A stretch of DNA of 64,000 nt from contig NZ_JAMFMB010000025.1 in assembly GCF_023502395.1 (NCBI RefSeq), positions 1-64,000 of the forward strand. The letters are read 5' to 3'. The notes below the pieces were generated by a model. The model made no database searches. It had not been told where the DNA came from and saw only the letters and a program-made list of their open reading frames with translations. The stretch is from Ruegeria spongiae (GTDB lineage Bacteria > Pseudomonadota > Alphaproteobacteria > Rhodobacterales > Rhodobacteraceae). Positions 2,399 to 44,637 of this stretch are shown here, piece by piece (positions within the stretch are counted from its first letter, which is position 1; every line of letters begins with the position of its first letter). The translations under genes and the position numbers were made by a program.

Positions 2399-4138
2399 AT
2401 GCGGAATTCTGATCGCGCGGCAGGGCAGGCCGAACTGCGTGATGTGCGGCGCGAAAATCGCGGATTGCTCTGGACCGCCGGGATCTTCAGCATCTTCGTG
2501 AACCTGCTGATGCTGACCGGCCCGCTGTTCATGCTGCAGATCTATGACCGGGTGCTGGGCAGCCGATCCGAAGAAACATTGGTGGCGCTCTTTTCGTTGA
2601 TGGCCTTCCTGTTCCTCGCGATGGGGCTGCTGGACTGGTCGCGCGGACGGCTGCTGGCGCGGATGGGCGCGCGGTTCCAGGCCGGGCTCGACCGGCGGGT
2701 GTTCAGCGCCATGCTGATGAAAGCATCGCTGCACCGGGATGAAAAGAAATCCGAGAACCAGCTCAAGGATCTCGAGTCGGTGCAGCGTTTCTATGCCTCG
2801 CCGACCTTTGCCGCCCTCTTTGACATTCCCTGGACGCCGATCTTTCTGCTTGGGATCACGCTGTTCCACCCGCTGCTGGGCACGCTTGCCATCGGTGGCG
2901 GCACGCTGCTGATCCTGATCACGGTGCTGAACCAGCTGACCACCAAGGGCGCGGTGCTGCAATCGACCGCAGCCAGCTACACCTCGGACCGGATGGCCGA
3001 GCACCTGCATGGCGAGGCCGAGCATATCCGCAGTCTGGGCATGCAGCGCAGCGCCTTCGAGCGCTGGCACAAGGCCCGCGGCAGGGCGCTGGAACAGGGG
3101 CTGCATGCCAGCGATATGGGCGGCACCTTTTCGGTGACCACCAAGACCTTCCGGCTGTTTCTGCAATCGGCGATGCTGGCGCTTGGCGCTTATCTGGTCC
3201 TGCAAGGAGAGATGACCCCGGGCGCGATGATCGCCGGGTCGATTCTGCTGGGTCGCGCGCTGGCCCCGGTCGATCTGGTGGTGGGTCAGTGGACCATGGT
3301 GCAGCGCGCCAAGCGCGGCTGGGAGAACCTGACCGAACTGCTGTCGGATATTCCGCCCGAGATCGCCCGCGTCGAACTGCCCAAACCCAAGGCCAAGCTT
3401 TCGGTGCAGCAATTGACCGTGGTGCCGCCAAATGCCCGGCAGGCCTCGCTGCGATTGGTGAATTTCGACGTCGCCCCGGGCCAGGCCGTTGGCGTGATCG
3501 GGCCCAGCGGCTCGGGCAAATCGACACTGGCACGCGCGCTGACCGGGGTCTGGGCCCCGGCGGGTGGCAAGATCCGCCTCGATGGCGCCTCGCTGGAGCA
3601 ATACGATCCCGAAAGACTGGCACAGTATATCGGCTACCTGCCGCAGCGCGTGCAGCTGTTCGACGGTTCAATTGCCGAAAACATCGCCCGGCTGAGCACC
3701 AACCCGGACGACGCCAAGATCGTGGCCGCAGCCAAGAAGGCCGCCGCCCATGAGATGATCCTGAAACTGCCTGACGGTTATGACACCCAGGTCAGCACCA
3801 CCGGCGGCCAGCTGAGCGGCGGCCAGATCCAGCGCATCGGTCTGGCACGCGCCATGTATGGCGACCCGGCGATCCTGGTGCTGGACGAGCCCAACTCCAA
3901 TCTCGACAATGAAGGCTCCAATGCGCTCAACACCGCGATCCGGCAGATGAAAGAGGCCGGCCACGCGGTGCTGATCATGGCCCACCGCCCCGCCGCCATT
4001 CAGGAATGCGACATGCTGCTGATGCTGGAGGACGGCGTGCGCAAGGCCTGGGGCCCGCGCGAGCGTGTTCTGGCCGAGGTGGTCAAGAACCACGCCCAGA
4101 TCCAGCAGGCCGCCAACAAACCGACCGGTGTGACATGA
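2399..4138 (+). CDS. prtD: Type I secretion system permease/ATPase (PrtD family)
   Basis: Inner-membrane ABC exporter that powers one-step secretion of RTX-type proteins through an HlyD adaptor and TolC. The N-terminal half is a transmembrane domain (hydrophobic stretches near residues 25-45, 60-80, 130-165 and 245-280). The C-terminal half is a nucleotide-binding domain with Walker A GPSGSGKST (~residue 367), signature LSGGQ (~471) and Walker B ILVLDEPNSNLD (~493). At 579 residues it matches PrtD/AprD and lacks the N-terminal C39-like domain of HlyB. Its stop overlaps the next start as ATGA (4135-4138), so the two are probably translationally coupled. Likely cargoes are the RTX proteins at 5829, 20595 and 26979-29717 in this window (inference from context). 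Confidence 0.95.
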   Translation: MRNSDRAAGQAELRDVRRENRGLLWTAGIFSIFVNLLMLTGPLFMLQIYDRVLGSRSEETLVALFSLMAFLFLAMGLLDWSRGRLLARMGARFQAGLDRRVFSAMLMKASLHRDEKKSENQLKDLESVQRFYASPTFAALFDIPWTPIFLLGITLFHPLLGTLAIGGGTLLILITVLNQLTTKGAVLQSTAASYTSDRMAEHLHGEAEHIRSLGMQRSAFERWHKARGRALEQGLHASDMGGTFSVTTKTFRLFLQSAMLALGAYLVLQGEMTPGAMIAGSILLGRALAPVDLVVGQWTMVQRAKRGWENLTELLSDIPPEIARVELPKPKAKLSVQQLTVVPPNARQASLRLVNFDVAPGQAVGVIGPSGSGKSTLARALTGVWAPAGGKIRLDGASLEQYDPERLAQYIGYLPQRVQLFDGSIAENIARLSTNPDDAKIVAAAKKAAAHEMILKLPDGYDTQVSTTGGQLSGGQIQRIGLARAMYGDPAILVLDEPNSNLDNEGSNALNTAIRQMKEAGHAVLIMAHRPAAIQECDMLLMLEDGVRKAWGPRERVLAEVVKNHAQIQQAANKPTGVT

Positions 4139-5445
4139 TTAACAAGAAACCCAAGCTTTTTCCCTCGACCGGCCCTCTGATGGTGGGCGTGCTGACTCTG
4201 GTCATCCTGATCGGTGGCTTCGGCGCCTGGGGGGTGCTGGCCAATATCTCGGGCGCGGTGGTGGCCTCGGGCCGGGTTGTCGTCGACAAGAACCGGCAGG
4301 TCGTCCAGCATCCCGATGGCGGCGTGGTCGAAGCGGTGCTGGTCGAAGAGGGCGATTTGGTCGCCGAGGATGACATTCTGGTCAAACTCGACCCGACGCT
4401 GCTGCAATCGGAACTGACCATCGTCGAAGGCCAGCTGTTCGAATTGATGGCGCGGCGCGGGCGGCTCGAAGCCGAGCGCGATATCACCGATGAGGTCCGG
4501 TTCGACCGGATGCTGCTGGAAAATGTCGAGCGCCGCCCCGAGATCGCGGCAGTGGCCGCCGGGCAGGTGCGCCTGTTCGAAGCCCGCCGCGAGGCCCAGG
4601 CCAAGGAAATCGAACAGCTGCGCGCCCAACGGACACAGCTGAACAACCAGATCGAGGGCGTCGATGCCCAGATGGACGCGCTCAAGCGCCAGCAGGAGCT
4701 GATCGAAAGCGAATTGGGCAGCCAGCAGACGCTGCTGGACAAGGGGCTGGCGCAGGCCTCGCGGGTTCTGGCCCTGCAGCGCGAAGAGGCGCAGCTGGCC
4801 GGTACGGTGGGCAATCTGGTGGCGCAGCGGGCCCAGACCCTGGAACGTATCTCGGAGCTGGAGATCGAAGAGCTGCAGCTTTATTCCGCCCGCCGCGAGC
4901 AAGCCATCACCCGCCTGCGCGACCTGCAGTTCAACGAGCTGGAACTGGCAGAGCAGCGCCGCTCGCTCATCGAGCGTCTCAGCCGTCTGGACATACGGGC
5001 GCCGATCTCGGGCGTGGTCTATGATCTGCAGGTCTTCGGCCGCAGATCGGTGATCCGGCCCGCCGATCCGACGCTGTTCCTGGTCTCGCAGGACCGGCCG
5101 CTGATCATCGAGGCACGGATCGATCCGATCCATGTGGATCAGGTCTATCCGGGACAGGAAGTGGTGATGCGCGTGGCCGCCTTCGACCAGCGCAACTCGC
5201 CGGATCTGTTCGGATCGGTGACCCTGGTCTCGCCCGACTCCTTTGTCGACGAACAGACCGGGGCCTCCTGGTATCGTGTCGAACTGGAACTGCCCGAAGA
5301 GGAGTTGAGCAAGCTGGGCGAGGATCAGATCCTGATCCCCGGCATGCCCGTCGACGCCTTCATCCGGACCCAGGATCGCTCGCCGCTGGCTTATCTGGCA
5401 AACCCGTTGACAAGCTATTTCAGCAAAGCCTTCCGGGACGGGTAA
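4135..5445 (+). CDS. prtE: HlyD-family periplasmic adaptor of type I secretion
   Basis: Membrane fusion protein that joins the PrtD ATPase to the outer-membrane channel. The chosen ATG at 4135 overlaps the upstream stop by ATGA and gives 436 residues, the usual PrtE/HlyD length. Upstream in-frame starts would lie within prtD. One transmembrane helix sits at about residues 15-37. A split biotinyl-lipoyl half (GRVVVDKNRQVVQHPDGG) follows. Long heptad-rich segments run over residues ~100-300, and the C-terminal beta-barrel part contains SGVVYDLQVF and PGMPVDAFI. No TolC-like gene is in the window, so the chromosome must supply it. Confidence 0.95.
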   Translation: MINKKPKLFPSTGPLMVGVLTLVILIGGFGAWGVLANISGAVVASGRVVVDKNRQVVQHPDGGVVEAVLVEEGDLVAEDDILVKLDPTLLQSELTIVEGQLFELMARRGRLEAERDITDEVRFDRMLLENVERRPEIAAVAAGQVRLFEARREAQAKEIEQLRAQRTQLNNQIEGVDAQMDALKRQQELIESELGSQQTLLDKGLAQASRVLALQREEAQLAGTVGNLVAQRAQTLERISELEIEELQLYSARREQAITRLRDLQFNELELAEQRRSLIERLSRLDIRAPISGVVYDLQVFGRRSVIRPADPTLFLVSQDRPLIIEARIDPIHVDQVYPGQEVVMRVAAFDQRNSPDLFGSVTLVSPDSFVDEQTGASWYRVELELPEEELSKLGEDQILIPGMPVDAFIRTQDRSPLAYLANPLTSYFSKAFRDG

Positions 5446-8436: not shown

Positions 8437-10071
8437 TTGTCGCTTGCAGTCCTATGGCAATCTAGCCACCGCCGCATTTTTACTTTTGGACTATTCACAG
8501 CCCTGGCTTTGGCCGTGTTGACCATGACGTTCCAGCATTTCCACCTGGACAATTGCGCCACGGTCGCGTCCTGGAAGTTCTGCAAATTCTCGAGCCACTT
8601 CGGAGAACGCGTGCTGGCTGTGCTTGTCCTGTCAACGATCTACGCCGTCGCGCGCCGCAACCACCTGACCGAGTTATTTCATGCCATTCAGGCACCCGGA
8701 CCGCTGGGCGCTCCGATGATCGCTGCCGCGGGCGGGTTGTTGCTGGCCGTCATCCCTGCTGTAGTCGTTGGTCCCGATGCGGAAGGGTCAGCCTTGCTGG
8801 CCGCACTTGTTGCCTGGGCCAGCGGCGTTGTCCTGGCATCCGGCGCGGCACTGCGACTGTTGGCCCCTTGGCCCGTCTGGCTCCGAACGTTTCAGTCGGG
8901 CCGGTTACTCTTGCCGATCCTTGTCATCGTTGCATTGGCGTTGCCTGAACTGGGCGATCTTCTGTTTCCCCTTTGGCACCTCGACATCATCCGGGATTTT
9001 ACTTTCTCGGCGGTCGTCTGGATGTCCGGGCAGATGGGCCTGCAACTGGTCCATGAGGCCGGATATGTCCTGCGGGATGGTAGCTTTGCTGTCGAAGTCG
9101 GTCAAAGCTGCTCGGGCGTAGAAGGCTTCGTGCTGACTTCGGTGTTCCTGGGTGGTTACGCTACGCTTTTCTGGCGCCAACTGTCGCTTTGGCGGGTGCT
9201 TTCCATTCTGCCCCTTGCGCTTGCGCTGTCGTGGCTCTTGAACGTCTTTCGGATCTCGTTGCTGATTTGGATTGGTGTCAATGTATCGCCAACGCTTGCC
9301 GTGGAAGGTTTCCACTCTCATGCTGGCTGGCTCTTGTTTTCAGGCCTGGCCCTTTTGATGATTGGAGTGGTTCATACGATCCCCTGGTTTCGCTCCGAAC
9401 GCATCAAAACGTCTTCGCATATGGATCGCGCATCAGCGGACGCGCCATTACCGCCACTTGTTCAGGATTGGAACGTTGCGCGTATTCTTCCCTTCGCCGT
9501 TTTCATGTTTTCCGCATTGGTGGCATCGACTTTCTTTCAGCATCCGGTACTGGCCTACCCTATCCGTCTCCTGTTGATGTTGGCGATCTTGTGGGTCTTT
9601 CGCACGCATTTGCTCGCCTTGCCCTGGCGGCTGGATTTCCAGGCCATGGCAATGGGAGCCGGAATTGGTGCCATCTGGCTGGTGACAGCCCCGTCGGATG
9701 CCGGGGCTGACCTCGCTCCGGCTCTGACTGGTCTCGGTAGCGGCGTCTTCATTCTCTGGATCATTGCCCGATCAATCGGTACATCTCTGGCGGTTCCGGT
9801 GATCGAGGAACTTTTCTTCCGATCCTATCTGCTGGATTTGCTCGGGGCCCAGCAATCCATCGGCCGAACCATACTGGCCGTGGCAATCAGCACGGCGGCC
9901 TTTGCAGTCTTGCATGATCGCTGGCTTGCTGCGGCTCTGGCGGGTTTGGTATTCGCCTGGCTGGCCCTGCGCAGGGACGGGCGGCTCACGGACGCAATTC
10001 TGTGCCATATGGTGGCAAACGCCCTGATTGCCGCCGCAGCGATCATTGAAGGAAATTGGGGGCTGCTTTAA
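8437..10071 (+). CDS. xrtE: Exosortase E fused to a CPBP intramembrane protease (VPEID-CTERM system)
   Basis: Polytopic membrane protein of 544 residues. The N-terminal ~320 residues are exosortase-like, with the expected catalytic set in order: Cys in GQSCSGVEGF (~224), Arg in NVFRISLLIW (~270) and His in EGFHSHAGW (~293). The C-terminal ~190 residues carry the CPBP/Abi metalloprotease motif EELFFRSYLLDLL (~457) and a later LHDRWLAA motif. This fusion defines exosortase E/protease of the VPEID-CTERM system. It should cleave and anchor or transfer proteins bearing that C-terminal signal. The matching substrate gene lies convergently at 10129-10323. The start is TTG at 8437: the frame is closed by TGA at 8407 and there is no ATG before residue ~30. 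The ribosome-binding site is weak. Confidence 0.92.
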   Translation: MSLAVLWQSSHRRIFTFGLFTALALAVLTMTFQHFHLDNCATVASWKFCKFSSHFGERVLAVLVLSTIYAVARRNHLTELFHAIQAPGPLGAPMIAAAGGLLLAVIPAVVVGPDAEGSALLAALVAWASGVVLASGAALRLLAPWPVWLRTFQSGRLLLPILVIVALALPELGDLLFPLWHLDIIRDFTFSAVVWMSGQMGLQLVHEAGYVLRDGSFAVEVGQSCSGVEGFVLTSVFLGGYATLFWRQLSLWRVLSILPLALALSWLLNVFRISLLIWIGVNVSPTLAVEGFHSHAGWLLFSGLALLMIGVVHTIPWFRSERIKTSSHMDRASADAPLPPLVQDWNVARILPFAVFMFSALVASTFFQHPVLAYPIRLLLMLAILWVFRTHLLALPWRLDFQAMAMGAGIGAIWLVTAPSDAGADLAPALTGLGSGVFILWIIARSIGTSLAVPVIEELFFRSYLLDLLGAQQSIGRTILAVAISTAAFAVLHDRWLAAALAGLVFAWLALRRDGRLTDAILCHMVANALIAAAAIIEGNWGLL

Positions 10072-10076
10072 AAAAG

Positions 10077-10104
10077 AAACGGCCCCGTCTGAGCAGGGCC
10101 GTTT
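10077..10104. terminator. Terminator between convergent xrtE and the VPEID-CTERM gene
   Basis: AAACGGCCC pairs with GGGCCGTTT (arms 10077-10085 and 10096-10104). Read on the minus strand the stem is followed by CTTTTTT, a good U tract for the VPEID-CTERM gene. On the plus strand it gives GTTTGAACGATTTT, a weaker tail. It probably works in both directions. Confidence 0.75.
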
Positions 10105-10128
10105 GAACGATTTTGATCTTGGGTAGAC

Positions 10129-10323
10129 TTAAGCCGCGCGACGGCGACGTTCCCAGGCAATCAGAACGACCGCAGCAAGAGCTGCGATGGCTGCCCCGCC
10201 TTCCAATGCGCTGATTTCCGGCACCTGACGCGGCGGCGGACAACCCAGACCGGTACAAGCGTATGCGGGCAGCGCCGCAAGTGTCGCCATCGTGGCTGAT
10301 GCACCAATAAGAATTTTCTTCAT
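10129..10323 (-). CDS. Small VPEID-CTERM sorting protein (exosortase E substrate)
   Basis: A 64-residue protein that is almost entirely targeting signals. Residues 1-22 are a signal peptide (MKKILIG... ending AYA) and residues 23-33 a short Cys- and Pro-rich mature part (CTGLGCPPPRQ). Then come VPEISALEGG, a hydrophobic helix, and a basic tail (WERRRRAA). The motif-helix-basic-tail order is the exosortase sorting signature, and VPEIS is a one-residue variant of VPEID. Adjacency to xrtE supports the pairing strongly. After processing only about a dozen residues would remain, so it may be a carrier or a site of modification. An AGGAGG ribosome-binding site lies upstream of the ATG. Confidence 0.9.
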   Translation of the reverse strand: MKKILIGASATMATLAALPAYACTGLGCPPPRQVPEISALEGGAAIAALAAVVLIAWERRRRAA

Positions 10324-10464: not shown

Positions 10465-13059
10465 TCAGCAGATGCAGTCATAATCTTCGAACGGAACCGC
10501 CGCGATAAACGGCTGAGAGTTTTCGACTGTTGTCGGATTGGGATCGACGATAAAGCTGACCAGATCACCAGTGCCGGCCACGAAGCCCTCGCCATTGTTC
10601 AGCGCCAGGTCGACCAGATAATCCACGTCCAGATCATTGCCGAAGCCCGGGTCGATGTCGGACTGATAATCGGTATCAAGCTCGTCGGTCAGTTCCCAGA
10701 TCGCGCGCTGCACTTCCCAGCCGCTGAACGCGCCGTCCACGGCGTTGGCATTTGCTCCCTCAAGGTCCTGATTGATCAGCCAATTGATCAGGTCCAGATT
10801 GTCGCCTGCGGATTGCCCATTGGCGAAACTGATCTGATCTGCATTGAAAACCGACACATCGGTCCCCGCGAGAATATTGGCAGTATGAACCGGTGCATCG
10901 GCAAAGTCCTCGGCACCCTCTGCGGGATCAAACAGGCTGAGGCAGTAGGCTTTCTCGAACACAACCCCGTCGAACCGCGCATCGCCGGTATCGTCGAGTT
11001 TGATGGCGAAGGCTGTGCCCTCCACGGGCAGTTCGATCCCATCCGTGATGAGTTGATAGCTGCCCGAGGTCGGGAAACTGGCCAGCAGAGAGTCGACGGA
11101 ATTCGCATCACCGCAATAGGTCACGTCCACATTGGCCGACGCACTGCCGCCATTGCCGTCCGACACGGTGTAGGACACGGTGTCGCTCGCTTCCTCGCCG
11201 ATATCCAGGAATTCGAACGCATCTTCGCCGTCAAAGACCAGATTCCCGCCGGAAAGCGTGACGTTGACACCAGAGCCCGTCGTGATGGTTTCGCCCTCGG
11301 CAATCGCCTGACCGTCAACCTCGGTGATCGTCAGAATATCGCCATTGGGGTCCGCATCATTGGCCAGAACATCGACCGTCACCGTTTCGTCAGCGCAGGT
11401 TTTGGCCTGATCATCGTTCGGCGTCGGATCGTCATTGGCCTTTTCGACACCCGCATCATTGTCCGGCGTATTCTGGCCAGCCTCGACGGGGATATTCATG
11501 ATCGTCGACATCGTCGCATCGCCGATCGCATCGCTGTCCGAGGCATCATCCCCGACATTGGCATCGATCAGGGTCTTGCCGTCCAGGACGCCATCGGGAT
11601 CGGTGAATTTGACCCCGTAGGTCCCCGGCTCAAGATCCGTGAAGGAGTAATACCCGTCTGGACCCGTCACCGTGGTCGCACCGGTTGGAACACCATTGGC
11701 ACCCAGCAGCATGACGACGACGCCGGCAATGCCCGGTTCGGCACCGTTGTTGTTGTCCTGATTGTCATCATCGGTGTCGCAGAAATAGCGACCCGACAGC
11801 GACCCCGGTTCGGGCTTTTCGCAGACGCCCAGATCGACATCATTTTCGCTGTCGCCAGTCACGGTGATGACACCCGACATGCCGTTCTCATCGACATCGG
11901 AATCGATCGTGTCATCCGAACCCGCGTCCTGAATGGTGAATTCGGTGCCATCCGGCGCCACACCCATGATCTTGTAATCACCGGCAACAACGTCATCGAA
12001 CCGGTAATTGCCGTCCGCATCGGTTTCGGTCGTGGCAACGACATTGCCGTCCAGATCGACCAGCTTGATGGTGACACCGGCCTTGGTCGGCTCCGACACC
12101 ACTTCCTGCGTGTCCTGGCCTTCGAGGGTGATCTTGTCGATGCGGACATACTCACCGCCATCGCCGCGCACCTTGAGCGTCACATCATCGCCGGGCTCGA
12201 TCGCGACATCCTTGATGACATAGGTCGAGAAGCCGCCATCATTGGACCCGGCCCCATCGCTATCAGCATTCAGGCGCACCGCCTCGACGAACTGCCCGCC
12301 GACCTTCAGCTTGATGATGCTCTGCCCGTCATTTTCATCCTGCACACGGATTTTGACGTCATAGACACCGGATTTGCCATCAAATGTGGTGCAGAGCGCC
12401 GCGTAGTCACCGGGGCAGTAAAGCTTCACGAGCTCGCCGCCCGAGGCCTGCGCACCGGAGACCACCTTGAACCCGCTGCTATACATATCCTCGGCTTCGA
12501 TCGTATAGTCGCAGCCCGGGATCACGGTCACTTCACCATTGATGCCGTCGCAATCCTGATCGCAAAACACAGTGCCCGAGATCGAGCCGGTTTCGATCTT
12601 GTCCCCGGCGCCGAGGCATTTGTAGTCGACCCAGTTGCCTCTGACATTGCAGGTGTTGATCACGGTCAGTTCGGTTCCCGCCGGAGGCACCTTGCCGTAA
12701 AACGAAAAATAATCATCGCCCGCGCCCGGGGCATCATGGCCTTCGATCTCGATCTCGATCATGTAATAGATCTGACCATCCGAACCTTGCAGAACATGGT
12801 AGCTTTCGGCGTACATCTGGCCGCCGACGGCTTCGCCATCGACATAGGCCTGCTGTCCGCTCCAATCATTGGCATTTTCGTTCTGGCAAGTGTCGCCCGA
12901 CAGAAAATAGTCGTTGTCCGTGGTGGAAAGGCAGACGCTGGCGCTTCCGGGCATGGTGAATGTATCGCCGCATCCAATGCTCGAACCATTGCCGCCCTGA
13001 TCCAGAAGATCGGCCTCAGTGATAGCGGTCCACTCGTATTCCTGATAATAGTACGTCAC
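10465..13059 (-). CDS. Large SdrD-B/cadherin-like surface protein with an inserted carbohydrate-binding-like module
   Basis: Acidic 864-residue extracellular-type protein. Residues 1-150 are an unrecognised Cys-containing N-terminal domain. An SdrD-type B repeat opens near 158 (GSISGTVFCDQDCDG). It is interrupted by a CBM6/CBM35-like beta-sandwich at ~184-314 (TIEAEDM... RIDKITLEG) and resumes at ~324-412. A second SdrD B repeat spans ~419-535 (GSLSGRYFCDTDDD), followed by a cadherin/VCBS-like domain at ~545-650 (NDADPNGDILTITEVDG, SYTVSDGNGGSA). The C-terminal ~200 residues match nothing I recognise and end in DYDCIC. No signal peptide is seen, so export is probably type I. The start is GTG at 13059, six bases after AGGGGGAAG. 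Likely an adhesin or matrix protein (inference). Confidence 0.82.
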   Translation of the reverse strand: MTYYYQEYEWTAITEADLLDQGGNGSSIGCGDTFTMPGSASVCLSTTDNDYFLSGDTCQNENANDWSGQQAYVDGEAVGGQMYAESYHVLQGSDGQIYYMIEIEIEGHDAPGAGDDYFSFYGKVPPAGTELTVINTCNVRGNWVDYKCLGAGDKIETGSISGTVFCDQDCDGINGEVTVIPGCDYTIEAEDMYSSGFKVVSGAQASGGELVKLYCPGDYAALCTTFDGKSGVYDVKIRVQDENDGQSIIKLKVGGQFVEAVRLNADSDGAGSNDGGFSTYVIKDVAIEPGDDVTLKVRGDGGEYVRIDKITLEGQDTQEVVSEPTKAGVTIKLVDLDGNVVATTETDADGNYRFDDVVAGDYKIMGVAPDGTEFTIQDAGSDDTIDSDVDENGMSGVITVTGDSENDVDLGVCEKPEPGSLSGRYFCDTDDDNQDNNNGAEPGIAGVVVMLLGANGVPTGATTVTGPDGYYSFTDLEPGTYGVKFTDPDGVLDGKTLIDANVGDDASDSDAIGDATMSTIMNIPVEAGQNTPDNDAGVEKANDDPTPNDDQAKTCADETVTVDVLANDADPNGDILTITEVDGQAIAEGETITTGSGVNVTLSGGNLVFDGEDAFEFLDIGEEASDTVSYTVSDGNGGSASANVDVTYCGDANSVDSLLASFPTSGSYQLITDGIELPVEGTAFAIKLDDTGDARFDGVVFEKAYCLSLFDPAEGAEDFADAPVHTANILAGTDVSVFNADQISFANGQSAGDNLDLINWLINQDLEGANANAVDGAFSGWEVQRAIWELTDELDTDYQSDIDPGFGNDLDVDYLVDLALNNGEGFVAGTGDLVSFIVDPNPTTVENSQPFIAAVPFEDYDCIC

Positions 13060-13677
13060 TGTTGCTTCCCCCTAGGTGTGCACCATCAATTACAAACGCG
13101 ACCCGCGCATTGCGGGTTCGGCATCGGGGGCCAAAAGACAATCCTGGATAAGACTGCATGAGCAAAAATATAGGCAGTCGAAAGTTCTCAAATTTTTCAA
13201 CCCACACACTCAACACTCTTAATGACAGGCAAAATTCACCCGTCACTCACAGATAACTACTGGTCCCCCAATCGCTCTGCCCGATTCAAAACCCCTTCGT
13301 CAGGCATCGCAGCCATTTAGGAGTAGAGTGGCACTGCTCGTCAACATTCTTGCCAAAATTTTGCCAAAATTTAGTGCACCTTGATCGCAATTCGGTCAAA
13401 TTCCCTCGCTGTTGGAAACAATAAGCGTGAACTTTAAATACCGTTTCCGGTTGAATCCGGCAGCTCTTCTATTGTGAGAACCGTTGGCGGGTCTCATGTC
13501 TTGAAGTCAGCTTGATAACCGAGATGACCTTGCCCCACTGAACCTGTGCGGATGTGGGGCATCACGGCACTTTAAAACAGGTGCCTTTCGAACCGCGTAA
13601 CAGCTTCGACATTGATGCCGCGCATCCTGGGAAATAACCTGAGCATACTTCTTACCCCTGTAACGGAAAGCAGACAC
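13060..13677. promoter_or_regulatory. Divergent promoter region between the SdrD-like gene and the cyanophycin-synthetase-like gene
   Basis: A 618-base gap, locally AT-rich. It contains a perfect tandem repeat of TTGCCAAAATT (13350-13360 and 13361-13371) and an 8-bp inverted repeat TGCCCCAC/GTGGGGCA (13531-13538 and 13554-13561). Either could bind a regulator of one or both genes. No further open frame is convincing. Confidence 0.4.
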
Positions 13678-16323
13678 ATGCAGGCATGTCTTCAGGTCCG
13701 GTCACTGCAGTTCTTCCACGGCTGCAAACATGACATCGCGGGCAGGACCGCCCTGCTCGACCTGGAGGTCACCGCTCCGGTTTCCGAACCGGTGCTGGCG
13801 CGCCTGTCGCAACCCGACGGGCTGCCCGGCCTGGCCCCCGCCGAAGAGATGCCCGATATCGCGGGGCGCGACTGGGTGGCGCCGCTGCTGGTCGGTGGGC
13901 GCGGGCGCGCGGCGCTGGCCGATCTGTCGGCGGCCCTGGTCGTGCTGCTGCAGCTCCGGGCGCGGGTGCCGGTCCACAAGGGCCAGGTGCTGGAAGCAAG
14001 CCCCGCCCGGATCCGCCTCGCCCTGCCCTGGCAGCGCCAGCAGCTTTTTCGCAACGCCACCGATCTGATGATCGCATTGCTGACACCGGACACAGCCGAG
14101 GCAGAGATTTCGCAACACCTGACCCGATTCCTTGAACAGGAACGGCGCGGCGGGCTGGCCCCCAATTCGATGCGGTTCGCACGCGCCGCCATGGACCGGG
14201 ACATGCCGGTGACGGTGCTGAACCAGCAGACGCTGCAGATCGGCTGGGGTGCGCGGGCGCGGCGCCTGCGCAGCAGCTTCACCGACCGGACCGGATCGCT
14301 GGCCGAAAAGCTGGCCCGCGACAAGTATTTCAGCCTCCAGCGCCTGAAACAGGCCGCCCTGCCGGTGCCCGAGCAACGTTTTGTGCGTACGCCGGAACAG
14401 GCCCGCGAGGCCGCCGCCGCCCTTGGCTGGCCGGTGGTGCTGAAACCGGTGGCGCTGGATCAGGGGCGCGGCGTGCATGTGGGTCTCACCTCGGATGAGG
14501 TGCTTATCCGGGCCTTTCACGCAGCCAGCGATCTGCAGGATCAGGGCGTTCTGGTCGAGGCCTTCGTGCCCGGTGACGATCACCGGCTGCTGGTGGTCAA
14601 CGGGCGGATGATGATGGCCGCCCGGCGCATCCCCGGCGGGGTCACCGGGGACGGGAAGCAAACCGTAGATGCGCTGCTCGACCAGGTCAATGCCGACCCG
14701 CGCCGCAGCAGCGCGCCGCGCAGCCTGCTGATCGAGATCCGCCGCGATGACGAGGCGCTGTCCTGTCTGCAAGAGGCCGGGCTGACGCCGGACAGCGTCC
14801 CCGAGGCGGGCCGTTTCGTACCGCTGCGCCGCACCGCCAATGTCAGCACCGGCGGCACTGCCGTGGATGTGACGGACCTTGTGCATCCCGATAACCGGGT
14901 GGCGGCGATCCGCGCGGTGCGGCTGGTGGGGCTGGATGTTGCCGGGGTGGATTTCCTCTGCCCCGATATCTCGGTCAGCTACCGCACGGGCGGCGGCGCG
15001 ATCTGCGAGGTGAACGGGCAGCCCGGGTTCCGCCCGCACTGGCTGAGCGCGCCGGACCGCGACATCAATGGCGAGGTGCTGGACGCGCTCTTTGCCGGCC
15101 AGCCCGCCCGCATTCCGACCGCCGCCATCACCGGCACCAATGGCAAGAGCACCACCGCCATGATGCTGCACCATATCTGGCAGGGCACCGGCAAGACCGC
15201 CGGGGTCTGCACCACGGTGGGCACCTGGATCGGTAAGGACAAGGTAGACAGCCAGAACCTCAGCGGGTTACCGGGGGCGGAGCTGCTGCTGGGTGATCCG
15301 GCGGTCGAGGCGGCAGTGCTGGAAATGCCACGGCTGGGGCTGATCCGCTTTGGCCAGGCCTGCGACCGCTATGATGTGGCGGCATTGCTGAATGTGCAGA
15401 ACGATCATCTGGGCCAGAACGGGATCGAGACGCTGGAAGAGATGGCGCGGCTGAAATCCGGCGTGATCCGGCACGCAAGCACGGCGGTGGTGGTCAATGC
15501 CGAGGACCCGCTCTGCCTGCAGGCGGTTGAAACCACCACCGCGCCGCGCCGCATCCTGGTGGCGATGGACGTCGCAACCCCGGCGCTGGCCGCCCATCTG
15601 GAGGGTGGTGGCGATGGTGTTTTCGTGGCCACACGGGACGGTGCCGACTGGATCGTGATGGCACGCGGGAGGCATCATGTCCCGGTGATGAAAGTGGCAG
15701 ACATTCCGGCCACGATGGGCGGGTTGCTGCGGTTCAACGTGATGAACGCCATGTTCGCCATTGCGCTGGCCGATGCCCAGAGCCTGCCCGGCGACGCTAT
15801 CCGAACGGCGCTGGCAGGTTTTGCCAACACGCGCGAGAAAAGCCCCGGTCGCTACAACATGCTCGACGGTTTCGCCTGCCCGATGCTGATCGACTATGCC
15901 CATAACGACACCGCCGTCGCCGAGCTGTGCCGGGTGGTCCGGGCCTTGCCGGTAACGGGTCGGCGCCTGCTGGCGCTGCAGATCCTGGGCAATAGCGGCC
16001 CGCACAAGCTCGAAAGCAGCGCCGCGCATCTGCTGGAGAGTTTTGACCGGATCGCGGTGCTGCCCGATCTCAGGGTGATCCGGAAATACGGTTATTTCAC
16101 CGGCGACGACCCGGAAGAAGAGATGCGGCAGCTGTCACGAGCCACGCTGATCGCGCGGGGCGCGTCAGATGGCCAGATCCTGACCGGGCCGGACAGCGAC
16201 GCGCTGGTCGACCAAATGATGCACGCGGTCCGGCCCGACGATCTGGTGGTGCTGATGATGGCGCCGCAGGCCGCCTTTGGCCATGTGGACCGGCTGCGGA
16301 TACGGGACGGCGCCAGGGGGTGA
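13678..16323 (+). CDS. cphA: Cyanophycin-synthetase-like ligase (ATP-grasp plus Mur ligase)
   Basis: Two ATP-dependent ligase domains in the CphA order. A short N-terminal domain begins MQACLQVRSLQFFHG, an ATP-grasp domain covers ~200-480 (VVLKPVALDQGRGVHV, VEAFVPGDDHRLLVVNG, VTGDGKQT), and a Mur-ligase domain starts at the P-loop TGTNGKST (~484) and continues with NVQNDHLGQNG and LIDYAHN. CphA enzymes build a poly-aspartate backbone with arginine side chains. From ATG 13678 (GGAAAG 7 bases upstream) the length is 881 residues, the family norm, and the N-terminus aligns with CphA starts; in-frame TTG 13612 and ATG 13615 would add about 22 residues. The usual glycine-rich ARGGI segment of the Mur domain reads EMPRLGLIRFG, and no cyanophycinase gene is nearby. 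Product chemistry is therefore open. Confidence 0.85.
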   Translation: MQACLQVRSLQFFHGCKHDIAGRTALLDLEVTAPVSEPVLARLSQPDGLPGLAPAEEMPDIAGRDWVAPLLVGGRGRAALADLSAALVVLLQLRARVPVHKGQVLEASPARIRLALPWQRQQLFRNATDLMIALLTPDTAEAEISQHLTRFLEQERRGGLAPNSMRFARAAMDRDMPVTVLNQQTLQIGWGARARRLRSSFTDRTGSLAEKLARDKYFSLQRLKQAALPVPEQRFVRTPEQAREAAAALGWPVVLKPVALDQGRGVHVGLTSDEVLIRAFHAASDLQDQGVLVEAFVPGDDHRLLVVNGRMMMAARRIPGGVTGDGKQTVDALLDQVNADPRRSSAPRSLLIEIRRDDEALSCLQEAGLTPDSVPEAGRFVPLRRTANVSTGGTAVDVTDLVHPDNRVAAIRAVRLVGLDVAGVDFLCPDISVSYRTGGGAICEVNGQPGFRPHWLSAPDRDINGEVLDALFAGQPARIPTAAITGTNGKSTTAMMLHHIWQGTGKTAGVCTTVGTWIGKDKVDSQNLSGLPGAELLLGDPAVEAAVLEMPRLGLIRFGQACDRYDVAALLNVQNDHLGQNGIETLEEMARLKSGVIRHASTAVVVNAEDPLCLQAVETTTAPRRILVAMDVATPALAAHLEGGGDGVFVATRDGADWIVMARGRHHVPVMKVADIPATMGGLLRFNVMNAMFAIALADAQSLPGDAIRTALAGFANTREKSPGRYNMLDGFACPMLIDYAHNDTAVAELCRVVRALPVTGRRLLALQILGNSGPHKLESSAAHLLESFDRIAVLPDLRVIRKYGYFTGDDPEEEMRQLSRATLIARGASDGQILTGPDSDALVDQMMHAVRPDDLVVLMMAPQAAFGHVDRLRIRDGARG

Positions 16324-20383: not shown

Positions 20384-20594
20384 CCCATTCGGGCGGCGCG
20401 CGCGCCCCATCCCTCTGAAATGACTTTCTTTCTGCTCTGAACGGCCCGGATTTCGGACCGCCCCAGGCCGTATTTGCGGCAAATTCCCGCCAAGTCCGCG
20501 CCTGATATGAGCGGGATATTTCCCGTAAATTCCGGCCCGATTGCGCCGACCGTCTCCCCCATGCCATCCCCGCGGCAGGCAGAGGAGCATTGAA

Positions 20595-21782
20595 ATGTCA
20601 CAGGCAGACTCATTCGAACGGTTGATGCTGGACCTGATCAATCAGGAACGCGCAAAAGCGGGTGTGGACCCGCTGAAACTGGAACTGCGTCTCAACGATT
20701 CTGCGGAAGATTACAGCGAGGACATGCTGGAGCAGGATTTCTTTTCGCATACCGGGCAGGACGGGTCCGATCCCGGCGACCGGATGCGCGAGGCTGGGTT
20801 TCAGTTTTCCGGCAGCTGGACCTGGGGCGAAAACATCGCCTGGCAGAGCGAGCGCGGCGCCACCGGCATCGCAGATGACGTCGCCAACCTGCATCAGGGG
20901 CTGATGAACAGTCCGGGCCATCGCGCCAATATCCTGAACCCGAATTTCGAAGTGATCGGCATCGGCATCGAGCGCGGCAATTACAATGGCTGGGACGCGG
21001 TGATGGTGACCCAGAACTTCGCCCGCACCGGCGCACCGCTGCAGCTCGACAACGGCAATGGTGGTGGCGGCGGTGACCCGACCCCCCTACCCCCGCAGGA
21101 TCTGGTGCTCTATGGGAATGGCGGCGCGAACACCCTCACTGGCAGAACCGGCGACGACCGGCTGTTCGGCCAGGGCGGCAACGATACGCTGACCGGCAAC
21201 GAAGGCGCAGACACGCTGAAGGCGGGCAGCGGCAGCGATCAGCTTCGCGGCGGCAGCGGAAACGACGAAGCCGATGGCGGCACGGGCAATGACAAACTCT
21301 GGGGAGGAAACGGCAGCGACAATCTCCTGGGTCGCAGCGGTAACGACAAGTTCTGGGGCGGAAACGGCAGTGATAGGCTCTGGGGCGGCAATGGCAACGA
21401 CACGATCCATGGCGGAAACGGCAATGACACAATCTATGCTGGTAATGACAATGACAGCATAGGAGGAGGCGCTGACAATGACGACCTGGGCGGCGGAAAC
21501 GGCAATGACACACTCAACGGCGGCACCGGCGATGACAAGCTGCGCGGCGGCGCGGGTGCCGACAGGCTGATATTCTCGACTGGCGATGACCGAGCATTCG
21601 GGTTCGGCGGCGCTGACGTGGTCGATCTGAGTAATGTGGCTACAATCAAAAACTTTGCCGACCTGCAGGCCAACCACCTATCGGGCGGGGCAAATGCGGT
21701 GATCAATGATGGCTTGGGCAATACTCTGACACTGGTCAGCGTGAATGTAGCCACGTTGGACGCGGGCGATTTCATCTTCTGA
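20595..21782 (+). CDS. CAP/SCP-domain protein with RTX repeats
   Basis: Residues ~5-140 are a bacterial CAP (SCP-like) domain: LINQERAKAGVDPLKL, FFSHTGQDGSDPGDRM, WGENIAW, LMNSPGHRANILNPNFE and VTQNFA. The acidic/His pair common to CAP proteins is present, but its biochemical role is unsettled. A Gly/Pro linker at ~155-165 leads to RTX nonapeptides (~170-335) and a C-terminal segment ending in LDAGDFIF, the usual tail of type I-secreted RTX proteins. The start is ATG 20595, just after AGAGGAG; an earlier in-frame start at 20541 lacks a ribosome-binding site. No signal peptide is seen, so PrtDE is the probable exporter. Confidence 0.92.
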   Translation: MSQADSFERLMLDLINQERAKAGVDPLKLELRLNDSAEDYSEDMLEQDFFSHTGQDGSDPGDRMREAGFQFSGSWTWGENIAWQSERGATGIADDVANLHQGLMNSPGHRANILNPNFEVIGIGIERGNYNGWDAVMVTQNFARTGAPLQLDNGNGGGGGDPTPLPPQDLVLYGNGGANTLTGRTGDDRLFGQGGNDTLTGNEGADTLKAGSGSDQLRGGSGNDEADGGTGNDKLWGGNGSDNLLGRSGNDKFWGGNGSDRLWGGNGNDTIHGGNGNDTIYAGNDNDSIGGGADNDDLGGGNGNDTLNGGTGDDKLRGGAGADRLIFSTGDDRAFGFGGADVVDLSNVATIKNFADLQANHLSGGANAVINDGLGNTLTLVSVNVATLDAGDFIF

Positions 21783-31813: not shown

Positions 31814-32683
31814 CTACGCCGAGTGCCCCACTGGACGTACCGCATCTGTTGATATTGCTGCCGCCAAGTCTTCGTCATGGAGTTGCGTTATCTCAGCCGG
31901 AAGCTCCATCGCTGGCTTGAATTTCCCGAACTCTGAAACGGGGAAGTTGTGCAAGATCGCATTGTTCACGCGCTCGGCTTTGTCCTGTCTCTGAATTTCT
32001 TTGTTCATGATTCTCGCAAGTTGAATGGCACGACCGGACAGAGAGGGGTTTTGTACGTCGGTATCAATAGACAGTTTCAATTTCCGGGGAGTAAGCGTGC
32101 TGAGAACAGTATTCAGGTAGTCACCCCTCATGGGAACAACTTCGACCTCATTAAAGCGGTCACGGAAAGACTTGACCACTGGGCTCCAAAGCACCCGCGG
32201 CAAATCAACTTCGGCCTCAAGCCAGTCCTGGTACGTTCTGAATTCTTTCTGCCTGTGAACGAAGTGCGTATATGTGGAGATGAGAAAGTCACGCTGAGGG
32301 CGGACAGTCAGAATTATCTTTGTGGAAGCAGCCCCCGTATAAGTGAGTACTTCCGCCGAAATTTCGCTCCGGTCAATGCCGCCAAAACCATATTTTCTTG
32401 ACGGCATAAAATCGTGACAAAATGTTTCAGAACTGCAGACAACCGTCTTGTATTTTTTGAAGTACGGCCCGAAGAAGTCAGCCGTTGCCTGCTCAAACCC
32501 GGATACGCTACCGGCACGGTACATTTTCATGTACTCACCAAAGTACTGACTCCCGCGAAAATCCTGAGGAAGGATAAGGCCGATCCCGGCCCGACTAAGT
32601 GCCTCGCGGTTCGATGAAAGAATATGCTGAATGGTCGATGTCGCCGTTTTTGGTGACCCTGGATGGATAATCAGTCTGGTCAT
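31814..32683 (-). CDS. Sulfotransferase-like protein (first of two)
   Basis: The N-terminus MTRLIIHPGSPKTATSTIQ carries a PAPS-binding P-loop of the sulfotransferase superfamily, and ILTVRPQRDFLISTYTHFV resembles the 3'-phosphate-binding motif. Length is 289 residues from ATG 32683, preceded by GAGG; the longer frame from 32734 overlaps the next gene and lacks support. With the neighbouring sulfotransferase it suggests a sulfated glycan. The DNA is visibly AT-richer than the rest of the window; for example 32401-32460 has 22 G+C of 60. That suggests separate acquisition. Confidence 0.8.
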   Translation of the reverse strand: MTRLIIHPGSPKTATSTIQHILSSNREALSRAGIGLILPQDFRGSQYFGEYMKMYRAGSVSGFEQATADFFGPYFKKYKTVVCSSETFCHDFMPSRKYGFGGIDRSEISAEVLTYTGAASTKIILTVRPQRDFLISTYTHFVHRQKEFRTYQDWLEAEVDLPRVLWSPVVKSFRDRFNEVEVVPMRGDYLNTVLSTLTPRKLKLSIDTDVQNPSLSGRAIQLARIMNKEIQRQDKAERVNNAILHNFPVSEFGKFKPAMELPAEITQLHDEDLAAAISTDAVRPVGHSA

Positions 32684-32715
32684 AGGTGCCTCAATTTGGT
32701 GAAAGTGTAATATTG

Positions 32716-33594
32716 TCAGCAGATAGTGTTCCACTTTGAAGCAAACGGGTATCCGAGATCCTCGAGTATCCCGATCTGCTCGATCATTTCAGGTTTGAAC
32801 TCGTCCAGAAGCCCGTCGGGCATCTCCATCTTCGCACTGACATTTACCGGGTTCGCTGCCGTCGGCTGAAGCTCGATACTGTCGATACCAAGAAAACCGC
32901 TTACCCGCTCCATGAAGACCACCGGGTTGGATTTGAGCTCTCCGAAGTCCAGAACAAGCACATCCTCGCGGTCAAATACCTCCAGGAACCGCGTCAGGTA
33001 TGTGCCGTAACACCCATCCTCATTCAACCTGTCAGCCCGGGCAAATTGGACCAGTTGTTCAGGAGAATAATTTTTCACCTCATCAAAGCAACCAATGTAT
33101 TCCGCGTGATACTTGATATGAGACCAGAGGCGCTCCACCGGGTCGCGCAAAATATAGATGATCTTCACATTCTCGGAGAGTTCGCGAATGGCATGCACCC
33201 CTTCAACGCTGATTTTGCTCGTTGACGGGCTGAAGTCGCAGGCTAATTGTTTCTTGCCCGCCTCCAGAAACAACCTACGGTACCAGGATTGGGTGACAGG
33301 GCCTTGCGCAAACATCTGGTACCAATCCAGCTTCTTTTGGAAGCGCCCGAACTCTCGGGAAAATACCGGTTCCGGCAACGGTTTTTCGAAATTTGCGCTG
33401 TCTCTTTCGACAAACTCTCTCAGCAGCTTGTACCGCGCAGACGTCCGAAGTCGGTTGAAGTCTCCGAAGCGCGAGAAAAAATAATGCAGCTCCTTTTCAG
33501 GCGCCATATAAATCTCCGGCGCCTGCAGCAGTTGTTCATACAGCCAAGTGGTGCCGGATTTGGCCGCCCCGATACACAAACAATATCCACGCAT
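32716..33594 (-). CDS. Sulfotransferase domain protein (second of two)
   Basis: Transfers sulfate from PAPS to a carbohydrate or similar acceptor. The 5'-phosphosulfate loop is GAAKSGTTWLYEQLL (residues ~9-23), and the 3'-phosphate motif is YILRDPVERLWSHIKYH (~150-166), both canonical. Length 292 is typical. GGGGAGG precedes the ATG. It is upstream of, and probably co-transcribed with, the other sulfotransferase, and downstream of the GT4 gene on the same strand. Local composition is AT-rich as in its partner. Confidence 0.9.
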   Translation of the reverse strand: MRGYCLCIGAAKSGTTWLYEQLLQAPEIYMAPEKELHYFFSRFGDFNRLRTSARYKLLREFVERDSANFEKPLPEPVFSREFGRFQKKLDWYQMFAQGPVTQSWYRRLFLEAGKKQLACDFSPSTSKISVEGVHAIRELSENVKIIYILRDPVERLWSHIKYHAEYIGCFDEVKNYSPEQLVQFARADRLNEDGCYGTYLTRFLEVFDREDVLVLDFGELKSNPVVFMERVSGFLGIDSIELQPTAANPVNVSAKMEMPDGLLDEFKPEMIEQIGILEDLGYPFASKWNTIC

Positions 33595-41739: not shown

Positions 41740-42798
41740 TCAGCGGGATTGCAGCCAGCCTTGCAACGCATCCGCAAGCGCCTCTGAAACGTCGTCACCC
41801 ACTAACTCTATGCGACTCTGATTCGGGGAAAATCGCATCTCCAACCCTTCCGACACCTGCGTCACGATGTGTTCTCCTCCAGCGATGCGCACGCGCGGGC
41901 GAGTGGGCGGGGTCGAAGGCTCCGGCGCTGCCTGAGGGGCAGGGGAGGGCTGCCGCTCGGCCACCGCATCCGCCAATATCCGCATCTCGGCACCGGCGCT
42001 GTCGCGCGGAGTGTTGCGCAACTGTTCCTTCAGCACGTCCCCAAAGCCGGGATCGCGCACCAGTTCCCGCGCCAGGGCCAGCCCCAGCTTCTCGCTAATC
42101 GCCGAAGGGAAATAGAGGCTGTCGTCAAAGGCATCAACCAGCGTGATGAACGTCCCGATCTTCGACCGCTTCGACCGTGCCGCATTGGCGTAAAGCCCCT
42201 GCAGAGCCAAGCGCTGGTTGGGATAGACCCCCTCTTTCATGGCGCGCACCGCGATGCGGGCGCGTTCGTAATGGCTGAGGTTCACCCGGATCTCGTTTTC
42301 CTCGACCATCGCCACATAGGAGGCCTGCGCGCTCTCAGGCCGGATCACCATCGCCCGCACGGTGGCAAATTTCGGATCGGATGTTTCGCGATAGAGCCTG
42401 CGCAGTGCCGTCAGACGGCGCCAACCCGAGATCAGACCATGGGTGCGCCCGCCAAGGGGTTCAGGCAGCAACACCACCTCGATGGGCATCTGTTGACCGC
42501 GCGCGCGCAGGCTGTCGGTCAGCGCTTTCATCTCCTCCTCGTCCTGCACCAGACGGTCGCGCACCAGGTGACGCTCATCTATCACCTCAAGCGGCAACAG
42601 CTCGATCATCCGCCCCTCGGAGCGGGCCTCCTGCAGAACCTGGGTCACCTCTTCCAGCGCTGCCGTGGCCGAGGCCTCGCCCGCCACCTGCGCAATCGGG
42701 GCCGTCGACACCGCGGGCATCATCTTGGTCTCGGGCGCTGCCATGGGCGTGCCCAGATAGCCGGGTTGTGCCGGGGTCAGCCGCTTGCGTTTTGCCAT
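41740..42798 (-). CDS. parB: Plasmid partition protein ParB
   Basis: DNA-binding partition protein of 352 residues. The ParB/Srx N-terminal domain is at ~60-165 (IELLPLEVIDERHLVRDR, GLISGWRRLTALRRLY, VEENEIRVNLSHYERARIA). A helix-turn-helix region follows (ANAARSKRSKIGTFITLVDAF), and a C-terminal domain is separated by a Pro-rich linker (~285-300). The gene follows parA by 25 bases in the same operon. It should bind the candidate parS at 41711-41726. Confidence 0.92.
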   Translation of the reverse strand: MAKRKRLTPAQPGYLGTPMAAPETKMMPAVSTAPIAQVAGEASATAALEEVTQVLQEARSEGRMIELLPLEVIDERHLVRDRLVQDEEEMKALTDSLRARGQQMPIEVVLLPEPLGGRTHGLISGWRRLTALRRLYRETSDPKFATVRAMVIRPESAQASYVAMVEENEIRVNLSHYERARIAVRAMKEGVYPNQRLALQGLYANAARSKRSKIGTFITLVDAFDDSLYFPSAISEKLGLALARELVRDPGFGDVLKEQLRNTPRDSAGAEMRILADAVAERQPSPAPQAAPEPSTPPTRPRVRIAGGEHIVTQVSEGLEMRFSPNQSRIELVGDDVSEALADALQGWLQSR

Positions 42799-42823: not shown

Positions 42824-44212
42824 TTATTCTGCCGCCTGCTGCGCATCCAACTCACCGCGCCGCCACACGCCCAGCAACAGCCGTTTGAAGGCGGCATAGG
42901 TGGCATCAAAAGTCTCGCGCCCGCGCGCGTAAGTCTCGCGGTTGAAATCGCGGTAATCGGCCTCATAGATGCCGTTCACCTGTTCACCCGCCTGACCGAT
43001 CAGCGCGGTGAAATCCTGTTTGTGCGGGCTCATGACCTTGCCCAGATAGGCCTGCATCAAGCCCGACAGCTCGCCCTGCTGGGCGCCGTCATAGCGGGTG
43101 ATCACAGCCCGCACCGCATCCCATTCAAAGCCGATCTCGGGACGGCCCAGGGCGCGGGCGGCAACATTTTCGCCCTCTTCGATGCTGGCAAAAGTGGAAT
43201 GCAGCATGTCAAAGAACCGACCCGTAGAATCGAACTCCAAGAAAGACGCCCCCAAGGGCACCAGCAGGATATCCGCCGCCGCCAGCCCGTTGATGGTCAG
43301 ATAGCCGAGGGCAGGGGGGGTATCGATGAACACCAGATCATAATCGTTCAGCACCCCATCCGCCTCAAGCCGGTCGGTGAGCGCATCCCACAGCTTCCAG
43401 CCGCGCGCCTGCATGCGCCAGACGGGCACCTGAAACTCGGCCCAATAGAGGTTCAGTTGCGCGCCGATGAGATCAATGTTGGGCCAGTGGGTGCTCTGGA
43501 TCAGATCCTGCGCGGTGACATCCATCGCCGCCGTCAAAGCCTCGTCCAGCGGCTGGGGCGGGTCGCCCCGGTCAAGGCGGCGCTGGTTCTCGGTGCGCAG
43601 ATATTCTCCGTAATGGCGCGCCAGAAGCGGGAAGGCGGTCTGCCATTCATCCTCGACCACACCACCAAAGATCGAAGTCATTGATCCCTGGCTGTCCAGA
43701 TCGATCACCAGCACCCGGTAGCCGTCCAGCGCCGCTGACATGGCCAGATGCGCCGCGGTGGAGGTCTTGCCCACGCCGCCCTTGAAATTGGCCACGGCCA
43801 CCATCTTGGCGGGCTGACCGGCGGGACGGTAGGGCAGGTAGTTCTTGGCTTTTGAACCTTGCGCCCCAAAGAAGGCCCGCAGCCGCAGAACCTCGTCGAG
43901 GGTGAACCATTTGGCGCCGCCCTCGGTCTCGCTCCGGCCTTGCGGCAGATCGGGGTTCTGTTTCAGCACGCGGCGGAAATGGGCCTGGGCGACCGGGATC
44001 AGATAGCGGGTGATTTCCCATGTCGAAAACAAACGCAGGTCCTTGCGCCCGGCCTCGTTGAGGCCCCGGCTGGCCAGATCGGCGCGACCCTGGGCACAGG
44101 CGCGGGCGATCTCGGCAAAGCCGCCTGTCTCTGTGGGTAAGTCCAGTTCGGCCAGCGCGGCGTCGGGGTCGATGTTGAAATAGGGGGGAAGGAACGTGTT
44201 GTCCTTGGCCAT
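42824..44212 (-). CDS. parA: Plasmid partition ATPase ParA
   Basis: Partition ATPase of 462 residues from ATG 44212 (MAKDNTFLPP), 18 codons into a longer frame whose start has no support. The N-terminal ~130 residues include a MerR/HTH-like segment (WFTLDEVLRLRAFFGAQ). The deviant Walker A KGGVGKTSTAAH is at ~146, with VIDLDSQGSM shortly after and a Walker B-like LVFIDTPPALGYL. ParA usually represses its own promoter, which must lie in the 44213-44460 gap shared with the replication origin. Confidence 0.93.
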   Translation of the reverse strand: MAKDNTFLPPYFNIDPDAALAELDLPTETGGFAEIARACAQGRADLASRGLNEAGRKDLRLFSTWEITRYLIPVAQAHFRRVLKQNPDLPQGRSETEGGAKWFTLDEVLRLRAFFGAQGSKAKNYLPYRPAGQPAKMVAVANFKGGVGKTSTAAHLAMSAALDGYRVLVIDLDSQGSMTSIFGGVVEDEWQTAFPLLARHYGEYLRTENQRRLDRGDPPQPLDEALTAAMDVTAQDLIQSTHWPNIDLIGAQLNLYWAEFQVPVWRMQARGWKLWDALTDRLEADGVLNDYDLVFIDTPPALGYLTINGLAAADILLVPLGASFLEFDSTGRFFDMLHSTFASIEEGENVAARALGRPEIGFEWDAVRAVITRYDGAQQGELSGLMQAYLGKVMSPHKQDFTALIGQAGEQVNGIYEADYRDFNRETYARGRETFDATYAAFKRLLLGVWRRGELDAQQAAE

Positions 44213-44461
44213 GGGTTTTCTGCTCGATGTGTTGTGTTTTCTGCATGATACCGAAAAAGGCGGCACATGGAAGGAAAACCATCACAAGCGGCGATTTTTC
44301 TCAGGAAAAGAAGGGGATGCTGATGCGTTTATAGCGCAGATTCCAAAGGGTTTTGTTTTTTTTAGAGTGTTAGATTCGTGTTATTTAATGTTACGCGCTC
44401 AGACTCACATGTATTTTCTCTTTTAATTCAGATAGGTAAGCATCGTTTCGAGAGGCTATCC
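44213..44461. promoter_or_regulatory. AT-rich origin/promoter region between parA and the iterons
   Basis: About 250 bases, strongly AT-rich at 44330-44440 (including a run of eight T after GTTTTG). It contrasts with the GC-rich surroundings and abuts the iterons, as expected for a DNA-unwinding element. It also must contain the parA promoter. No small gene was found. Confidence 0.6.
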
Positions 44462-44521: not shown

Positions 44522-44531
44522 TGCGAGGTCC

Positions 44532-44540: not shown

Positions 44541-44637
44541 CTCTAGGCTCGGTGTCACTAAAACCACGAAAGATTCCCGGACCGGAAAACCGGCTGGAGA
44601 CAGGCCCCGACAAGAGGGCCGCGATATTGAGGCGACG

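Follow-up and report, generated by a model that had tools for sequence, protein, structure and literature searches.

The window, the whole stretch of 64,000 nucleotides analysed here, belongs to a contig of 73,775 bases from Ruegeria spongiae that carries ParA, ParB and a replication initiator. The plasmid backbone includes genes encoding a ParB-like protein (41740-42798, minus strand), a ParA-like protein (42824-44266, minus strand) and a replication initiator A (44482-45666, plus strand) that is 75% identical to the initiators of Phaeobacter inhibens plasmids of about 70 kb. GDP-fucose, Wzi and KpsE/KpsM-like genes are found on this contig, the Wzi and KpsE/KpsM-like genes within the window; this agrees with the capsule setting named in the original prediction, which was made from the sequence alone. 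According to its replication type and gene content, the contig resembles the polysaccharide and biofilm plasmids of roseobacters.

Three adjacent genes are considered below. The first, xrtE (8437-10071, plus strand), encodes a 544-amino-acid exosortase E fused to a CPBP (Rce1-like) glutamic intramembrane protease; its exact start is uncertain because the start codon is TTG. The second (10129-10323, minus strand) encodes a VPEI-CTERM protein of 64 amino acids, termed here the micro-substrate. The third (10465-13059, minus strand) is located directly upstream of the micro-substrate gene on the same strand and encodes an adhesin of 864 amino acids, an SdrD-B-repeat protein (SdrD_B, 1.6e-33; Big_9, 1e-12) with a C-terminal thioester domain (TED). 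The best reading is that this xrtE/micro-substrate/adhesin cassette sits on a RepA-I-type polysaccharide plasmid. A perfect 9-bp inverted repeat (10077-10085/10096-10104), read from the sequence, lies between the convergent xrtE and micro-substrate genes; the segment 10077-10104 could be their shared terminator. Genes encoding a PrtD-type type I secretion ABC transporter (2399-4138, plus strand; TIGR01842, 653 bits) and a HlyD-family type I secretion adaptor (4093-5445, plus strand; TIGR01843, 328 bits), both over cut-off, are also found in the window.

The exosortase and its micro-substrate

The XrtE of the window matches TIGR04162 (404 bits, E 1e-120; cut-off 150), and its two domains, PF02517 (CAAX-protease Rce1-like) and PF09721 (exosortase), both score over the gathering threshold. 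Residues C225, R272 and H293 of the exosortase and E457, E458, H493, H524 and N528 of the CPBP protease are invariant in the 46 aligned xrtE sequences (46/46), and both active sites of the window enzyme are intact. The micro-substrate reads MKKILIGASATMATLAALPAYA, CTGLGCPPPRQ, VPEIS, ALEGGAAIAALAAVVLIAWE, RRRRAA. The mature stretch CTGLGCPPPRQ (11 residues; about 10225-10257, minus strand) is followed by the VPEIS motif (10210-10224, minus strand), a hydrophobic helix and an RRRR tail. The signal peptide, the VPEI motif, the hydrophobic helix, the basic tail and the adjacency to xrtE are all present, as read from the sequence and by comparison with relatives. Both open reading frames of the enzyme-substrate pair at 8437-10323, the minimal mature region of the small protein and its VPEIS in place of VPEID were thus found as originally described, and the identity of XrtE and its substrate is practically certain. 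The small protein had also been expected to score against TIGR04161, a failure to do so being named as refutation: this is indeed its best model (28.6 bits, E 1.1e-6), with a score below the curated 33-bit cut-off, so that the prediction is not refuted outright. It is the single TIGR04161 match of the genome. The other VPEIS proteins of Rhodobacteraceae are also under this cut-off, except those of genomes G189 and G072.

The distribution of these genes was determined in a sample of 395 Rhodobacteraceae genomes (nearly one per genus). An XrtE over cut-off is encoded by 41 of the 395 and, outside the family, by one genome of a class-wide sample. The micro-substrate is not a chance open reading frame since a TIGR04161-like match is found in 40/41 xrtE genomes of the family, less than 1 kb from xrtE in 37 of them (our count); G018, the xrtE genome devoid of a VPEI-CTERM match, has an adjoining APEIN open reading frame of the same build. 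The signal is VPEIS in 10/41 xrtE genomes; it therefore defines a subtype rather than an oddity of the window, and the proposal that it is peculiar to this locus finds no support.

In a maximum-likelihood tree of 46 XrtEs, 25 rows form a classic clade (support 99/98). Their signals are mostly VPEIDAST-like, their mature stretches are often Gly/Trp/Ser-rich and the substrate gene is usually convergent with xrtE. The remaining 21 rows contain all 17 adhesin-linked XrtEs, and the closest relatives of the window enzyme are those of G126 and G079 (100/100). Residue 295 (9319-9321), beside the catalytic His-Ser, is His in nearly all adhesin-linked XrtEs and mostly Tyr or Phe in classic ones; it is a possible marker of specificity or subtype. 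Two variations in substrate content were observed. Genome G142, with an XrtE that does not belong to the classic clade, encodes two larger VPEV-CTERM proteins of 187 and 483 amino acids (L070, 9338-11824), so full-size XrtE substrates are possible. Genome G028 (L083/L105) encodes four VPEI-CTERM micro-proteins, three of them in a row after xrtE.

The pair shares with the exosortase E/VPEID-CTERM system (TIGR04162/TIGR04161) the fusion enzyme and a small Sec-exported substrate, made of a VPEI motif, a helix and a basic tail, encoded beside xrtE. It differs by the VPEIS signal, a substrate under 33 bits and a fixed thioester-adhesin partner; in addition, adhesin-linked mature regions are 6-18 residues long and devoid of the Gly/Trp/Ser-rich stretch that is frequent in the classic clade. 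In MYXO-CTERM/myxosortase MrtX and MrtJ/JDVT-CTERM, a CPBP protease likewise handles a C-terminal tripartite signal, and MrtJ also belongs to a two-gene pair with a single target (PMC11980579). However, the CPBP protease of the window forms a single protein with an exosortase, and no invariant Cys is found in the signal of the substrate.

The mature stretches of the 19 adhesin-linked peptides have no common sequence. Exactly two Cys are found in 11/19, none in 8/19 and one in 0/19, these counts resting on mature regions read by eye for G036, G068, G135 and Limimaricola. The spacing of the Cys in two-Cys peptides is 4-9 residues, for which a disulfide loop would be a simple reading. The two Cys had been taken as a sign that the peptide plausibly carries an attached lipid, glycan or protein; given the Cys-less peptides, a Cys-borne lipid or glycan carrier is not general among adhesin-linked peptides.

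The adhesin and its predicted thioester domain

The last approximately 215 residues of the adhesin are strongly conserved: they contain an AYC-hydrophobic motif, a [VI]QxAIWxLtD motif and, late in the domain, a QPFI whose Gln is invariant, and they finish in DC[L/I]C. They correspond to the TED (10468-11115, minus strand), identified from alignments, PF08341, AlphaFold2, Foldseek and VIA. Its key codons, all on the minus strand, are those of Cys58 (10942-10944, in AYCLS), Gln136 (10708-10710, in VQRAIW), Gln201 (10513-10515, in SQPFI) and Cys214 (10474-10476, in the DYDCIC end). Cys58 is found in nearly all aligned rows, and Gln136 and Gln201 in 19/19; Cys58 would form the thioester bond with one of the Gln. 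In G064, the thioester Cys is replaced by Gly, a natural loss. The conserved elements of the TED fit the motifs published for thioester domains, namely [YFL]C-hydrophobic-hydrophilic, a helix with TQxA(I/V)W and, apart from it, a Gln located in a strand (PMC4450167, PMC8092201).

PF08341 matches 14 of the 17 members of the adhesin family (best E 4e-7). For the TED of the window, the match is weak (12.4 bits, E 0.22; gathering score 22); the full-length member L068 reaches 25.6 bits, over the gathering score. The AlphaFold2 model of the TED, predicted from an alignment that excluded rows from plasmid records, has a pLDDT of 91.4 and a pTM of 0.90. All its Foldseek matches with E < 0.01 are thioester domains (4c0z, 3e-5). 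VIA retrieved ten thioester-domain entries at Z 8.9-12.2, the next, unrelated entry being at Z 3.3. A sequence-profile search of solved structures did not retrieve any thioester domain, and only fold comparison gave a match. The model and the fold matches thus provide good support for a thioester fold, which is very probable for the C-terminal domain; the bond itself is predicted.

The predicted fold and the three motifs are those of Gram-positive thioester domains (PF08341: Cpa, SfbI, BaTIE). In contrast to the latter, which are located near the N-terminus, the TED of the window is C-terminal and its sequence scores below the Pfam gathering threshold; the adhesin is alphaproteobacterial, lacks a Sec signal and LPXTG, and has the conserved DC[L/I]C end. 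In the literature searched, thioester adhesins are so far Gram-positive and none is described in the Gram-negative group of the window.

The N-terminal domain of the adhesin (12595-13059, minus strand; MTYYY..YEWTAITEADLL..) was delimited by alignment and is also found in homologues (L146, L148) whose C-termini consist of RTX repeats or resemble type I tails. Its model has a pLDDT of 83.6; no PDB match, and hence no known fold, was found for it. The N-terminal 490 residues of an RTX/type I adhesin of Leisingera NJS204 are 74% identical to those of the window adhesin, and the N-terminal 414 residues of an adhesin of the same kind from Phaeobacter inhibens S4Sm are homologous to them. However, in these two proteins RTX or type-I-like ends take the place of the thioester domain, and the annotation shows no VPEI peptide next to them. 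Inspection by eye did not reveal a Sec signal in the adhesins (window and homologues), and several of them finish in short hydrophobic tails (GMIFL, NMFI, DMIL). PrtD/HlyD type I secretion genes are located near the adhesin gene in the window and in Rhodobacter sp. CZR27, and directly after it in G389, where no exosortase was found; they are adjacent in only a minority of adhesin loci. Export by a type I system is the likely route we infer for the adhesin.

Linkage of xrtE, micro-substrate and adhesin genes

Wherever an xrtE locus contains a homologue of the adhesin gene, this homologue lies directly upstream of the micro-substrate gene (13/41 genomes, window included). The same order is observed on four plasmids, those of Rhodobacter sp. 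CZR27, Alloyangia pacifica, Rhodobacteraceae SC52 and Limimaricola variabilis. The distance from the adhesin stop codon to the VPEI codons is 190-265 nt, on the same strand, in 12/12 genomes outside the window, and 241 nt in the window. In the latter, xrtE is inverted relative to the adhesin and micro-substrate genes, which keep the usual order. All VPEIS xrtE genomes (10/10) are adhesin-linked.

The adhesin family is found in 19/395 genomes, i.e. 13/41 xrtE genomes vs 6/354 others (Fisher p 4e-10, OR 27, an association inflated by shared descent), and in none outside Rhodobacteraceae in the class-wide sample. The XrtE of the window is 34-54% identical to those of other adhesin loci; the constant gene order across such diverged XrtEs is better evidence of linkage than the Fisher test. 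Outside the cassette, no window gene shows such conservation in the other xrtE loci compared. The original prediction had proposed that the SdrD-like neighbour and the capsule genes indicate what the peptide may anchor: the adhesin gene is strongly linked genetically, whereas the capsule genes lie outside the conserved unit. The inclusion of the latter in the unit was rejected, since Wzi and KpsE/M-like genes were not found in other xrtE stretches. That the SdrD-like neighbour is a thioester adhesin belonging to the unit had not been recognised.

Other loci show variations of this arrangement. Genome G135 keeps the adhesin and a VPEIS peptide without adjacent xrtE, and no exosortase was found anywhere in this genome; a plasmid of Paracoccus fistulariae also carries the adhesin and a VPEIS peptide without xrtE beside them. 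In G002 and G319, both of which have another exosortase, a VPLPA-CTERM-type protein (26.7 bits, over cut-off, and 22.4 bits, under cut-off, respectively) is encoded directly after the thioester adhesin; a second sorting system thus accompanies this adhesin. These four cases indicate that the adhesin repeatedly has a sortable protein as its neighbour, irrespective of the exosortase involved. In G389, G064 and G295, the adhesin is present and no sortable partner was seen beside it. Overall, a functional linkage of the xrtE, micro-substrate and adhesin genes is probable. Both the enzyme family and the thioester fold were already known; their constant pairing was not found described.

Proposed mechanism and alternative explanations

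This locus bears on two questions, what exosortase substrates are attached to and why some of them consist of little more than a sorting signal. It provides a concrete candidate partner for the micro-substrate, this partner being an adhesin with a predicted thioester from a Gram-negative group. Because the cassette is small and its genes can be deleted singly, both questions become accessible to experiment. The literature supports a role of exosortases in processing and in anchoring to the surface or to polysaccharide, the transfer of the substrate and its acceptor being unproven (PMC12188702, PMC11980579).

That the three genes travel together suggests a way of fixing an adhesin to the Gram-negative cell surface. 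The components, their active sites, the conserved linkage, the thioester fold and residues and the subtype phylogeny have their basis in sequence and computation; from these we infer an export route, a cut and transfer, a docking role of the peptide and its anchoring or capture of the adhesin, as follows. The SdrD-B-stalked adhesin, with its C-terminal thioester domain, would leave the cell without a Sec signal, most likely via the neighbouring type I system. The micro-protein would be Sec-exported and its VPEI[S/D]-helix-basic tail would hold the mature peptide in the inner membrane. XrtE would cut at VPEI[S/D] and hand the peptide to an acceptor in the envelope or polysaccharide, the fused CPBP protease assisting it or clearing the tail. 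The displayed peptide would be the docking or anchoring partner of the adhesin at the cell surface, and the thioester of the adhesin would form a covalent bond with a nucleophile such as an amine. This three-gene surface-display cassette, in which the adhesin docks via the XrtE-sorted peptide, is proposed tentatively, its chances being slightly less than even.

Alternatively, an ordinary XrtE/VPEID-CTERM pair could lie beside an unrelated adhesin: the peptide would be sorted to the surface polysaccharide to serve a purpose of its own, and the adhesin would be a passenger, given that plasmids of this kind gather surface and polysaccharide genes. XrtE does not need a thioester adhesin, because the classic clade works without one; exosortases usually accompany polysaccharide genes (PMC12188702, PMC1569441); and co-inheritance of an operon alone might produce the linkage between peptide and adhesin, so that the Fisher test is not independent evidence. 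However, the capsule and transferase genes of the window are not widely recurrent in other adhesin loci while the adhesin recurs at the same position, and the adhesin-peptide pair persists without adjacent xrtE and also with the substrate of another exosortase. This explanation is considered rather unlikely.

A two-part covalent display of the adhesin on the Gram-negative cell was also considered, with anchor and adhesin encoded by separate genes: the envelope would receive a minimal peptide from XrtE, and the adhesin, exported by the type I route, would be joined to this peptide, perhaps through a reaction of the adhesin thioester with the free N-terminus of the peptide (or with the N-terminal Cys where present). 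Such a covalent version of the cassette is unlikely. A pairing of the DC[L/I]C end of the adhesin with the Cys of the peptide was dropped, as the CxC end persists in adhesins whose peptide is Cys-less.

It is quite improbable that the micro-protein, rather than being cargo, is a minimal substrate acting as a helper or decoy of XrtE, its cleaved helix or peptide reporting on or regulating the assembly of the surface, or that it is a small signal peptide closed by a disulfide loop. The short mature peptides without conserved sequence and their content of zero or two Cys, never one, as for a disulfide loop, would fit; yet no recurring receptor gene was seen in the loci (only window genes being compared), and conservation of the sorting signal but not of the peptide is expected if sorting is the point. 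The reading of the original prediction, in which the two Cys let the peptide carry an attached lipid, glycan or protein and thereby anchor the capsule, draws on the N-terminal Cys that the window, G081 and Alloyangia have after the signal peptide and on the capsule genes of the window, but is highly improbable given the eight Cys-less relatives, an AYA-C that is not a standard lipobox and the restriction of the capsule genes to the window among the xrtE stretches compared.

Outside the cassette, several other genes of the window were observed. Between the adhesin and capsule genes, a gene (13612-16323, plus strand) absent from other xrtE loci encodes a cyanophycin-synthetase-like ATP-grasp/Mur-ligase protein of 903 amino acids (619 bits, below the cut-offs of 877 and 850). 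The product of another (20541-21782, plus strand) combines an N-terminal-side CAP (SCP-like) domain with RTX repeats behind it and closes with DFIF, a typical type I end. Two neighbouring sulfotransferase-like genes, judged by eye, are found in the polysaccharide region (31814-33594, minus strand). The segment 56028-62216 encodes an FAD oxidoreductase, a TIM-barrel protein, an NAD epimerase and glycosyltransferases; the same set adjoins xrtE on the plasmid of Rhodobacter sp. CZR27 (L108), so that the two plasmids have more than the cassette in common.
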